In this document: one piece after another, positions 7,157 through 59,095 of the stretch
How positions within the stretch are numbered: the first letter of the stretch is position 1
Layout: each line of letters begins with the position of its first letter
Source of the DNA: Amycolatopsis antarctica
Lineage (GTDB): Bacteria > Actinomycetota > Actinomycetes > Mycobacteriales > Pseudonocardiaceae
Direction: 5' to 3'
Assembly (NCBI RefSeq): GCF_002262875.1
Contig: NZ_NKYE01000007.1
Span: 1-64,000 of the forward strand
Length of the DNA stretch: 64,000 bases
The notes under the pieces: model-generated
What the model was told of the DNA's origin: nothing
Databases searched by the model: none
What the model saw: only the letters and a program-made list of their open reading frames with translations
Position numbers and translations under genes: made by a program

Positions 7157-7253
7157 CGCAATATGTCGACGAATTGCGGGGCCGGCGACCGCAATATGGC
7201 GACGTATTGCGATGCCTTGTGCACGAGGTATCGCAATATGTCGCCATATTGCG
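7157..7253. repeat. family-1 palindromic repeat array, copy A (three units)
   Basis: Three 22-bp palindromes built from the half-site CGCAATATGTC and its reverse complement lie at 7157-7178, 7190-7211 and 7232-7253. Spacers are exactly 11 bp and 20 bp. The 20-bp spacer begins ATGCCTTGTGCACG, as at the 59-kb copy. The units carry a few substitutions (GGCGAC or GTCGCC replacing the central GTCGAC). The array sits between convergent genes. I see no coding gene or promoter here. The sequence could form RNA hairpins or serve as protein-binding sites. Confidence 0.93.
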
Positions 7254-33933: not shown

Positions 33934-34799
33934 CTGAACTCAGACCCCGCCGCTCGGTGCTCTACATGCCGGGCGCCAACGAGCGCGCACTGGAGAAGGC
34001 CAAGGGTCTCGACGCGGACGCGCTCATCCTCGACCTCGAGGACGCCGTCGCCCCGGATGCCAAGGAAGCGGCCCGCGAGCGGGTGTGCGCCGCGGCGTCG
34101 TCCGGTGAGTACGGCGACCGTGAGGTGACGATCCGCGTCAACGGCATCGACACCGAGTGGCACGAGCCGGACCTGCGGGCGGCGGCGAAGGCCGGCCCCG
34201 CCGCGGTGGTGGTGCCGAAGGTGAACTCCGCGCGGGACGTGCAGAACATCGAACGCGCGCTGGAACTCGGCGGCGCGCCGGAGCACACCGCGATCTGGGC
34301 GATGCTGGAGACGCCGGTCGCGATGCTGCGGGCGGAGGAAATCGCCTCGGCGTCGGAGCGGCTGACCGTGCTCGTGATGGGGACCAACGATCTGGCGAAC
34401 GAACTGCACGCCGAGTTCGTGCCGGACCGGGGGCCGCTGCTGGGCGGGCTCTCGCTGTGCCTGCTCGCCGCCCGCGCCACCGGGAAGGTCATCCTGGACG
34501 GCGTCTACAACGACGTGAAGGACCTGGAGGGGTTCGAGGCGGAATGCCTGCAGGGCAGGCGGTTCGGCTTCGACGGCAAGACGTTGATCCATCCCGGCCA
34601 GCTCGAACCGTGCAACCGCGTGTTCGCCCCGTCGGACGACGAGGTGACAAACTCCCGCAAGATCATCACCGCGTTCGACGAAGCGCAGGCCGCCGGCAAG
34701 GGCGTCGTCACGGTCGACGGGCGGATGATCGAGAACCTGCACGTCGCCAACGCGCAGCGGATCCTCGCCCTGCACGAGGCGATCGGCGCGAAGTCCTGA
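33930..34799 (+). CDS. HpcH/HpaI aldolase / CitE-like CoA ester lyase
   Basis: A 289-residue CitE-type protein. The N-terminal [44 protein letters not shown] is diagnostic; [36 protein letters not shown] and [10 protein letters not shown] supply the metal and substrate residues, and [22 protein letters not shown] the C-terminal region. Members cleave or hydrolyse malyl-CoA-like esters ((3S)-malyl-CoA thioesterase or citramalyl-CoA lyase). Its pairing with the preceding malyl-CoA-lyase-like gene suggests consecutive steps or a hetero-oligomer in C4-C5 acyl-CoA metabolism (inference). Confidence 0.92.
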
Positions 34800-45993: not shown

Positions 45994-46938
45994 CTACGAA
46001 CCTCGCAGTCTGGGATCGACGACGGCGTAGAGCAGGTCCACCAGGAAGTTCACCAGCAGCACGCCCACCACCAGCACCAGCACGATCCCTTGCACCGCAA
46101 GGAGATCACGGGAGGCGACCGAGTCGAGCAGCATGCTGCCGAGCCCGGGCAGCACGAACACCCGCTCCACCACGACGGCACCGACGAGCAGCGTGGCGAG
46201 TTGCAGGCCCAGCACGGTGACCACCGGGACGGCGGCGTTGCGCAGTCCGTGCCGGATCAGCGCCGGGTACGGCCGCAGGCCCTTCGAGCGGGCGGTACGC
46301 AGGTAGTCCTCACGCAGCACGTCGAGTACCGAGGAACGCACATACCGGGTGAGCACGGCACCCTGCACCAGGCCGAGTGACAACGCGGGCAGGACCAGTC
46401 CACTGAGGAACGCGCCCGCGTCCTGGTTCGGCGGGGTCCAGCCACCGGAGGGCAACCAGCCGAGCCGGACGGCGAACACCTGAACGAGGATGATCCCGGC
46501 GAGGAACGCGGGCACGGCCACGCCGAGCTGGGACAGTCCGGACAGCGCGGTGCCGGCGGGGCGGCGGTGCCAGACGGCGGCGACGGTACCGAGCGGAAGG
46601 GCGATCAGCGCGGCGACCGCCATGCCCGCGCCCACCAGCCACATCGTCACGCCGAGCCGGTCCAGCAACTGTGGCCCGATGGGTTCGCGCGTCACGTAGG
46701 ACTGACCGAAGTCGCCGGCGAAGACGCCGCCGATCCAGTCCAGGTACTGGGTGAGCAGCGGACGGTCGATGCCGAACTCCGCGCGGGTCTGCGCGACCAG
46801 TTCCGGCGTCGCGTTGACGCCGAGCGCGACCTGCGCCGGGTCGCCCGGCAGCACCGCCATGAAGAAGAACACGACGACGGAGGCCACCACCACGCTCACG
46901 GCCAGGATGGCGAGCCGCCGCAACGCGAGGATCAGCAC
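45994..46938 (-). CDS. peptide/opine-type ABC transporter permease (DppB-like)
   Basis: A 314-residue permease beginning LILALRRLAILAVSVVVASVVVFFFMAVLPGDPAQ, the standard DppB opening, with VLREDYLRTARSKGLRPYPALIRHGLRNAAVPVVTVLGLQLATLL as ATPase-contact loop and helix. The GTG at 46938, with GGGAGG eight bases upstream, is preferred. The frame remains open for 58 more codons through a family-1 palindrome array to a GTG at 47112 that overlaps the stop codon of the binding-protein gene, so a repeat-encoded N-terminal extension is conceivable. Confidence 0.9.
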   Translation of the reverse strand: MLILALRRLAILAVSVVVASVVVFFFMAVLPGDPAQVALGVNATPELVAQTRAEFGIDRPLLTQYLDWIGGVFAGDFGQSYVTREPIGPQLLDRLGVTMWLVGAGMAVAALIALPLGTVAAVWHRRPAGTALSGLSQLGVAVPAFLAGIILVQVFAVRLGWLPSGGWTPPNQDAGAFLSGLVLPALSLGLVQGAVLTRYVRSSVLDVLREDYLRTARSKGLRPYPALIRHGLRNAAVPVVTVLGLQLATLLVGAVVVERVFVLPGLGSMLLDSVASRDLLAVQGIVLVLVVGVLLVNFLVDLLYAVVDPRLRGS

Positions 46939-46948
46939 GGCACCCTCC

Positions 46949-47078
46949 CGCAATTCGTCGACATATTGCGCTTCCCAGGACCGCAATTCGTCGACATATT
47001 GCGATCCATCGTGCACAAGGCATCGCAATACGTCGACATATTGCGCTTCCCAGGACCGCAATATGTCGACGTATTGCG
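46949..47078. repeat. family-1 palindromic repeat array, copy B (four units, complete)
   Basis: Four 22-bp palindromes made from half-sites CGCAATAYGTC or CGCAATTCGTC lie at 46949-46970, 46982-47003, 47024-47045 and 47057-47078. Spacers are 11, 20 and 11 bp. Both 11-bp spacers are identical (CTTCCCAGGAC) and the 20-bp spacer is the reverse complement of the one at 59.06 kb, with a central GTGCAC. The array fills the gap between the binding-protein and permease genes inside an operon, so it will be transcribed and should fold into strong hairpins. Confidence 0.95.
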
Positions 47079-47104
47079 GTGCCGGGCGGGTGCTCGGGAG
47101 GTCA

Positions 47105-48595
47105 TCACGCACGCCCCAGGCGGGTGAGGTCGAAGGACTCGGTGACCTGGTTCTGTGCCAGGCCGGTGACCTTCTTCTTCGCCACCATGACGTTCGGGAA
47201 GAGGAACAGCCAGTTGGCGGCGGCGTCGGCGTCGAGCGTGCGCGCGACCTCCCGCATGACGCCCGCCTGCTCCTCCGGGGTGCCCGCGTCGGCCCGTGCC
47301 AGCAGCTCGGTGACCTGCGGATTGTCGTAACCCCAGTAGAACGACGGCTTGCCGAAGGTGACGATGTCGCGCGCCTCGACGTGCTGCACGATCGACAGGT
47401 CGTAGTCGTGCTCGGTGAACACCTGCTTGAGCCAGACGGCCGGGAAGTCGAGCGGTTCGATGGTGACGTTCACGCCGACCTTGCTCAGCTCCGAGGACAC
47501 CACCTGCGCCGAGGACACCGCGTACGGCAGGTTCGGGATCCGCAGCCGCAGGGACAGGTTCTCCTTGCCCGCCTCACGCAGCAACGCCTTCGCCTGCTCG
47601 GGATCGTGCGGCTGGGCCCCGGAGAGGTCCTCGTACCAGGGGTCGGTGGGCGGGACCATGCTGCCGAGCAGCGTGCCGCGCCCGGCCCAGGCCGTGTCCA
47701 GCAGCGCGCGCCGGTCGATCGCGAGGGTCAGCGCCCGGCGTACCCGCGGGTCGGCGAGTTCGGGGCGCTTGTTGTTGTACGCCAGCACGACTTCGCTGTT
47801 GGTGGTGCCCTGGACGACGTTGAAGCGGTTGTCCTTCTCGAACTGGGGCACCGAATCGGGCGCGACGATCGAGGAGATGACGTCGATGCCGTTGCTCAGC
47901 AGCGCGTTGTTCAGCGCCGTCGCGTCCTTGTAGTACTTCAGGTAGACGGTCTGGTAGGCCGGTTTGGCACCCCAGTAGGCGGGGTTCTCGCTCAGCGTCA
48001 CCGAGTCGCCGCGGCGGCGCTGGGCGAACACGTACGGCCCGGTGCCGATCGGCTTGTTCGCCAGGTCGCCGACGCCGGTGGGGCTGAACATCGCGCCGAT
48101 CCGGCTGGTCATGCCGAACAACCAGGCGTTGCTGGGTTTGCTCAGCACGACCCTGGCCCGCAGCGGATCGACCACCTCGACGCGATCCACGACGTCCATT
48201 GTGGACTTCACCGAGATCGTCCAGTCGGTCTTCACCCGGTCCACGGAGAACTTGACGTCCTCGGCGGTGAAGGGCGCGCCGTTGCTGAAGGTGACGCCGG
48301 GCCGGAGGGTGAAGTCGTAGACCAGCCGGTCCGGGCTGACGGTCCAGGATTCGGCCAGCGCGGGCCCGATGCGTCCCTGCTCGTCGAGCTTCACCAGGGT
48401 CTCGTAGACGTTGTAGAGCAGGGCCTGCGGGATCGCGGCACCGTCGGTGCGGGTGAAGTCGAGGTTCTGCGGTTCGGCGGTGAACCCCACGGCCAGCGCG
48501 GAGTCGCCACCGGCGACGAACGCGCTCGATCCCGCCGAGCAGCCCGTGATCGCGAGCAGCACCGCCGCCGCGATCGCACCCAGACGGACCTTCAT
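47105..48595 (-). CDS. peptide/opine-type ABC transporter substrate-binding lipoprotein
   Basis: A 496-residue family-5 extracytoplasmic solute-binding protein. The lipoprotein signal is VRLGAIAAAVLLAITGCSAG with Cys19 as the lipidated residue. The SBP_bac_5 hallmark region LAESWTVSPDRLVYDFTLRPGVTFSNGAPFTAEDVKFSVDRV is at about 85-130, and YWGAKPAYQTVYLKYYKDATALNNALLSNGIDV further on. It captures oligopeptides or other amide-containing solutes. First gene of the eight-gene operon and divergent from the FadR-type regulator. ATG 48595 is chosen because the signal starts there; the ORF upstream is shadow. Confidence 0.92.
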   Translation of the reverse strand: MKVRLGAIAAAVLLAITGCSAGSSAFVAGGDSALAVGFTAEPQNLDFTRTDGAAIPQALLYNVYETLVKLDEQGRIGPALAESWTVSPDRLVYDFTLRPGVTFSNGAPFTAEDVKFSVDRVKTDWTISVKSTMDVVDRVEVVDPLRARVVLSKPSNAWLFGMTSRIGAMFSPTGVGDLANKPIGTGPYVFAQRRRGDSVTLSENPAYWGAKPAYQTVYLKYYKDATALNNALLSNGIDVISSIVAPDSVPQFEKDNRFNVVQGTTNSEVVLAYNNKRPELADPRVRRALTLAIDRRALLDTAWAGRGTLLGSMVPPTDPWYEDLSGAQPHDPEQAKALLREAGKENLSLRLRIPNLPYAVSSAQVVSSELSKVGVNVTIEPLDFPAVWLKQVFTEHDYDLSIVQHVEARDIVTFGKPSFYWGYDNPQVTELLARADAGTPEEQAGVMREVARTLDADAAANWLFLFPNVMVAKKKVTGLAQNQVTESFDLTRLGRA

Positions 48596-58998: not shown

Positions 58999-59095
58999 CG
59001 CAATACGTCGACATATTGCGGTCTCCGGGAGCGCAATATGTCGACGTATTGCGATGCCTTGTGCACGATGGATCGCAATACGTCGACGTATTGCG
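58999..59095. repeat. family-1 palindromic repeat array, copy C (three units)
   Basis: Three 22-bp palindromes at 58999-59020, 59032-59053 and 59074-59095 with spacers of 11 and 20 bp. Half-sites are CGCAATACGTC or CGCAATATGTC. The first unit is embedded in a larger inverted repeat because flanks CCGGAGAC and GTCTCCGG pair, extending it to 38 bp. The array lies 14 bp after the acylase stop and about 107 bp before the PLP gene start. Confidence 0.95.

Follow-up and report, generated by a model that had tools for sequence, protein, structure and literature searches.

A REP-like family of imperfect extragenic palindromes in Amycolatopsis antarctica and its array between two genes of a transporter locus

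The window, a 64-kb stretch of Amycolatopsis antarctica DNA, carries on its minus strand a gene for a solute-binding protein (SBP_bac_5; 47105..48562, the start at 48562 being approximate and hand-set for the family scan) followed by a gene for an ABC transporter permease (BPD_transp_1, BPD_transp_1_N; 45994..46938). The binding-protein gene ends with a stop codon at 47107-47105, and the likely start codon of the permease gene is the GTG at 46938, with GGAGGG (46943..46948, minus strand) just upstream as its likely Shine-Dalgarno sequence. Array B (46949-47078) lies between the two genes and consists of four near-palindromes (P) of 22 bp each, at intervals of 33, 42 and 33 bp, none of its elements having an assigned strand: P1 (46949..46970; CGCAAT-TC-GTCGAC-AT-ATTGCG), P2 (46982..47003), P3 (47024..47045) and P4 (47057..47078). 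The outer pairs are separated by 11-bp linkers (46971..46981 and 47046..47056), and the inner pair by a 20-bp linker, Q (47004..47023), itself a near-palindrome centred on GTGCAC. The P-11-P-20-P-11-P layout and the periods of 33 and 42 bp given in the preliminary description are thus confirmed. That description regarded the layout as the complete element, but array B is the only clean example among the 59 arrays of the genome described below; L050 has a weak fourth palindrome (4 mismatches, 34 bp). Both 11-bp linkers of array B have one sequence, the sole identical pair among 55, and array B therefore looks like a local duplication. With up to 3 mismatches allowed, P has 10 matches in the window where 0.03 would be expected, and two further arrays of the family, both P-11-P-20-P, lie at 7157..7253 and 58999..59095.

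Array B is open in all six frames. As described earlier, its minus strand encodes the QYVD motif four times in a frame continuous with the permease, giving a 372-aa ORF (45994-47112). The GTG said to overlap the upstream stop exists at 47112, shortly ahead of the stop codon inside the 3' end of the binding-protein gene, but is unlikely to be where the permease starts. Translation from the GTG at 46938 gives VLILALRRLAI; here, and in 27 of 29 relatives, the conserved RR is preceded by 6 residues. Because this GTG has its own putative Shine-Dalgarno sequence and yields the N-terminus length of those relatives, the QYVD-extended permease proposed earlier is unlikely. A 57-codon ORF is also predicted on the minus strand (46932..47105): its ATG overlaps the binding-protein stop (TGATG), and it crosses array B and ends just past the permease start codon (stop 46934-46932). 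Translational coupling across array B through this ORF is possible.

P is a genome-wide family. A pattern search of the whole genome of the window (6.34 Mb, 64 contigs), with the reversed pattern as a control, yields 172 sites when up to 3 mismatches are allowed (control 2) and 151 when up to 1 is allowed (control 0). The pair patterns P-11-P and P-20-P occur 57 and 32 times, respectively, and never in the control. Fifty-five stretches were fetched, which hold 59 arrays and together 149 of the 172 sites at up to 3 mismatches; 23 of these 172, and 7 of the 151 at up to 1 mismatch, lie outside the arrays read. A lone 4-mismatch site in L045 was excluded before counting, leaving 59 of 60 groups, as were 6-mismatch matches in L081 and L091 and the 4-mismatch palindrome in L050. 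Among the 59 arrays, P-11-P and P-11-P-20-P (or its mirror) account for 20 each, the latter number rising when weak matches are disregarded, P-20-P for 8 and P-11-P-11-P for 4. The 11-bp linkers have 54 distinct sequences among 55, with a weak GT(C/G) edge beside P. The 20-bp Q linkers (n = 32 in the arrays read) are conserved and near-palindromic themselves, CCTTGTG and CATCGTG being their two main half types. With its 33/42-bp spacing, variable 11-bp linkers, few perfect palindromes and conserved Q, the family is an unusual REP-like variant, and no published description of the P repeat was found in the openly readable papers searched.

A gene for a DUF559 nuclease-like protein (L078, 3090-3986) is located between two P-11-P-11-P arrays within L078:3001-4168; among the arrays read, no other single called gene is flanked by arrays in this way. 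This arrangement recalls REP-flanked RAYT genes, and chance is a plausible explanation of it. The gene was considered as a mobiliser of the family and rejected; DUF559 scores above its cut-off, MTES_1575 lies below it, and the adjacency is plausibly accidental.

The two variable bases of the P half-site are AT, AC or TC and rarely TT. Perfect palindromes are scarce: among 132 sites without mismatch there are 7, against 50 expected from shuffled halves, and none of 5000 shuffles is as low. The combination AT/AT occurs 3 times among the 148 sites with up to 2 mismatches used for the half-site table, with an altered core every time. Similarly, 0 of 32 Q sites are perfect against 4.1 expected, although 43 of 5000 shuffles also give 0. 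The few perfect dyads reflect either selection against them or descent from an asymmetric founder. At least nine perfect palindromes occur among the listed sibling palindromes of other genus genomes, which argues against a general instability of perfect palindromes.

Variable complementary flanks that extend P were considered and rejected as a general feature, since the flanks of the 149 P sites are complementary at fewer positions than those of shuffles (727 vs 840). Such an extension is clear in two copies, L089 (11 bp) and L041 (8 bp), and one of five sets of flank stems exceeds chance, namely P with the left 11-bp linker (sum 47 vs 31.6; 2 of 2000 shuffles). Copying of linkers from an array's own flanks was also dismissed, because similarity to these flanks is barely above that to other arrays (7.49 vs 7.34 in direct and 7.42 vs 7.31 in inverted orientation). 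In tandem arrays no orientation preference relative to transcription is found, with P of the AC/AT type on the sense strand in 29 cases vs 24, and Q in 7 vs 6. Pairs at 11 bp are exactly inverted in 17 of 55 cases against 11.5 expected (p 0.04), and pairs at 20 bp in 6 of 32 against 7.4 expected. Over the 59 arrays (L039-L093), C prevails in the 30 bases to the left (796 C, 446 G) and G in the 30 bases to the right (884 G, 413 C), which may be the base composition behind stop codons.

None of the 59 arrays lies inside a called gene. Genes were called with our own codon-score script, and comparison gene pairs were taken from the same loci as the arrays. The gene pairs that flank the arrays are tandem in 32 cases, convergent in 22 and divergent in 5, whereas the other adjacent pairs at these loci comprise 163 tandem, 36 convergent and 47 divergent ones (convergent vs rest, Fisher p = 1.8e-4). 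The median distance from an array is 26.5 bp to facing stop codons vs 117 bp to facing starts. A facing stop codon lies within 60 bp in 46 of 59 arrays, and in 26 of the 32 tandem pairs the array is closer to the upstream stop. The downstream start is called inside the array at two loci, array B and L060, because the frame is open there.

The site of array B is empty in relatives. A 3-kb query of the locus is matched by all 80 genus genomes searched, the own genome included, with only a weak match in G001, and the junction between the binding-protein and permease genes was read in 29 relatives (L095-L123). In 28 of them the ATG or GTG of the permease gene overlaps the TGA of the binding-protein gene; in L105 an overlapping ATG is present, but the permease begins after a 52-bp gap. 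No P at up to 5 mismatches occurs at any of the 29 junctions, in a region reaching from 100 bp ahead of the stop to 200 bp past it. Because the genes of relatives overlap and their junctions lack P, array B is, as judged from this comparison, a lineage-specific insertion that splits the transporter operon; given the overlapping stop and start in relatives, it moved the two genes 166 bp apart. The earlier proposal of a mobile or hairpin element inside an operon is supported to the extent that P is a dispersed hairpin-forming element and its site is empty in relatives. At the loci of three other arrays, two in L055 and one in L079, no P at up to 5 mismatches is found in 15 junctions of relatives. 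For another array of L079 (2968-3055), these searches yielded no junction that could be compared. Across L079:2968-5700, two array-adjacent genes are missing in some relatives, G060 for example, where just 37 bp separate the genes on either side, and so this array borders a 2.7-kb insertion here or loss elsewhere.

Of 80 genus genomes, 17 carry the sibling palindrome TTAGTCGACTAA, with 1-17 copies each, and the genome of the window lacks it; its control occurs in two other genomes, with 1 and 2 copies. The sibling matches with a named source come from Amycolatopsis orientalis, oliviviridis, thailandensis, roodepoortensis, decaplanina and strain WAC 01376. In two other Amycolatopsis stretches, sibling palindromes CGCAATTAGTCGACTAATTGCG (L037:3813-3834 and L038:4671-4692) have flanks that differ and yet are complementary, lengthening the hairpin. 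Among 84,980 species genomes, the P pattern matches 14 stretches, 8 of which are Amycolatopsis sequences of the TAG/CAG type and 6 of which are Proteobacteria-type records, two of them from one Sphingomonas bin. Q with both P edges has no match in the 84,980 species genomes, array B has none in plasmid and phage collections, and P has none in IMG/VR viral contigs; each of these collections may omit records of the own genome.

The preliminary description suggested that the element is adapted to keep reading frames open. Forty-eight of the 59 arrays are indeed open in all six frames, and an array taken as a whole has many more open frames (5.8) than mononucleotide shuffles (2.2), although the same P is counted repeatedly in this comparison. 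However, 11 of the 16 variable dinucleotides that are possible leave P by itself free of stops in all six frames, and six-frame openness is as frequent in convergent arrays (18 of 22) as in the tandem class (25 of 32). The openness is therefore taken as a consequence of the P motif. In addition, the listed sibling palindromes in other Amycolatopsis genomes contain TAG or TGA stops. Stops occur in 7 of 55 linkers of 11 bp (12.7% vs 17.7% in shuffled ones, not clearly fewer) and in 1 of 32 linkers of 20 bp. The idea of a spacing in multiples of three holds for 87 of 90 P-to-P intervals at up to 3 mismatches in the arrays read, of which 55 are 33 bp and 32 are 42 bp, and fails for the single intervals of 34, 53 and 74 bp, which break the frame. 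Adaptation to open frames is thus not borne out, and the array is most likely not a coding element or a part of any protein.

Array B is probably a copy of a REP/BIME-like extragenic palindrome that has spread in one Amycolatopsis lineage and would act through an RNA hairpin at 3' ends. Folding of 46940-47107 on the minus strand predicts a single long hairpin of -99.9 kcal/mol, an energy reached by 0 of 200 shuffles (z = -10.7). The array would have entered between a binding-protein gene and a permease gene that previously had an overlapping stop and start, and its RNA may form one long hairpin behind the binding-protein gene. By analogy with malE-malF in E. coli, such a hairpin could shield the 3' end of the binding-protein mRNA and lower permease expression or uncouple it. 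The malE-malF structure is a REP. Because of its two-fold symmetry, the array could act on either strand, which would fit convergent genes. An RNA 3'-end role is our best guess. The two strands of the AC/AT-type P fold unequally (-9.5 vs -5.8 kcal/mol), yet there is no orientation preference, and this counts against it, as does the lack of the tag and the RAYT typical of many REPs. Rfam gives no match above the gathering score; the 8 matches at E <=1 are all miRNA precursor models far below their cut-offs.

Protein-DNA binding would explain at least equally well why the spacing is fixed at 33/42 bp, close to whole numbers of helical turns, while the 11-bp linkers vary, and because the spacing is rigid and an orientation preference is absent, a putative DNA-binding role has to be weighed. 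The arrays may then be DNA binding platforms, with P for a dimeric protein such as a nucleoid factor, topoisomerase or regulator and Q for a MarR-type regulator, a possibility that we hold to be clearly weaker than the RNA hairpin. Centre distances of 21, 33 and 42 bp would bring the sites to almost the same face of the helix, 55 linkers (54 of them distinct) are exactly 11 bp and 32 are 20 bp, and the sites are near-dyads used in either orientation. Outside the arrays, Q at up to 1 mismatch matches at only two places, both upstream of genes on contig C18 (G000:C18:24073-24092 and 34755-34774; L148, L149), while weaker Q-like sites have 3 mismatches. The second of these lies 20 bp upstream of a MarR gene (L149:8232-8735) that adjoins an OsmC gene, the first upstream of an alpha/beta-hydrolase gene. 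In one of the sites both halves are CCTTGTG, and in the other they are CATCGTG and CATTGCG. Genes like these are under Ohr-type regulators. Contig C18 was considered as a master element and rejected, because the 40 kb read contains no P at up to 5 mismatches; its stand-alone Q sites are for this reason read as putative MarR-type operators, which provides a lead. Against binding platforms, the arrays lie behind genes and not at promoters (divergent pairs 5 of 59), each Pfam family is matched by at most 3 of the 102 neighbour proteins scanned, and the link to MarR depends on just these two putative operators.

A bolder reading, which we regard as speculative, is that of a RAYT-independent family laid down by an 11-bp ruler, in which a protein adds or keeps imperfect P and Q is a captured MarR-type operator. 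Fifty-four of the 55 linkers are distinct, and arrays are absent at four loci in ~80%-identical relatives; if this is general, P-11-P would not be a unit that was copied and then drifted. If this reading is true, the exact distance between P sites is set by a protein that also requires imperfect palindromes, and ~32 gene ends would become binding sites or decoys for a stress regulator.

It is improbable that the arrays are remnants of a conventional MITE or IS, bounded by terminal inverted repeats and mobilised by an ordinary transposase. Their lineage-specific dispersal would suit such an origin, but they share no unit with fixed ends, the number of palindromes and the linkers vary between copies, and the flanks have little in common besides the weak GT(C/G) edge. 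Moreover, no transposase is found among the 25 commonest of the neighbours' 155 Pfam and 72 PHROG families, a census in which a single such gene is possible. Least probable of all is a coding or frame-neutral element that would sustain translation within operons through a longer permease or a coupling leader ORF: the 48 six-frame-open arrays and the 57-codon ORF from TGATG, whose stop falls just after the permease start codon, would agree with it, but the equally open convergent arrays, the openness of P alone, the stops in listed siblings, the 3 of 90 frame-breaking intervals and the permease N-terminus conserved from 46938 speak against it.

The family is a REP/BIME-like system in an actinomycete that has neither the usual tag nor a detectable RAYT, and another route of origin and spread is therefore possible. 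The locus offers a before/after pair, an overlapping stop and start in relatives vs a 166-bp hairpin-filled gap here, and because this pair is clean, the effect on expression of the binding protein vs the permease is directly testable.

The P family is real, genome-wide, lineage-specific and REP-like. An excerpt of one account places REPs extragenically, near stop codons and between convergent or tandem ORFs (PMC3733652), and the part of a second consulted describes location, copy number and array form of REP/BIME similarly (PMC2817692). P shares with them short imperfect palindromes, more than 100 copies, these locations, and an arrangement in dimers and small arrays whose spacers are variable or conserved; in the broad sense, it agrees in copy number (172 vs 2 in the control), extragenic 3'-end placement and dimer or mosaic arrays. 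Its spacing, unlike that of REP/BIME, is almost confined to two lengths; in E. coli BIME-1/RIB, an IHF site lies between two REPs. Tagged REPs have GTAG/CGTC and often a RAYT, whereas P has neither: within 8 bases on either strand, GTAG and CGTC each occur in 1 of 118 outer flanks at the foot of P arrays, and the search for a RAYT-like transposase suggested earlier (Y1, PF01797) gives 0 matches in the 99.6% complete assembly against 5 of 14 control genomes with a match. The family is therefore termed REP-like and not a member of the tagged REPs. An actinomycete host has precedent, since RepRanger, according to a portion of its report, predicts REPs in three Actinomycetota (PMC12306157). REPINs are described, in an extract, as inverted REP doublets that form a single hairpin, with spacer length more conserved than spacer sequence (PMC3116915). 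P resembles them in its doublet unit and in conserved spacer length; exactly inverted pairs, which could form one hairpin, occur in P too, more often than expected at 11 bp (17 of 55) and less often at 20 bp (6 of 32). Its spacers of 11 or 20 bp are shorter, its pairs follow no clear rule of orientation, and a RAYT is missing. Rickettsia palindromic elements are likewise palindromic and can be open in frame, but they lie inside genes in the account excerpted (PMC3733652), whereas 0 of 59 P arrays are intragenic and the permease start is outside array B. N-terminal ORF extensions over REPs have previously been suspected to be non-coding, in passages of two papers (PMC3733652; PMC2817692). Array B differs from malE-malF in sequence and host, and its effect would follow by analogy, but the part of the malE-malF study consulted has an intercistronic structure that protects malE mRNA, and the two loci are alike in placing a hairpin between a solute-binding-protein gene and a permease gene (PMC5927463).
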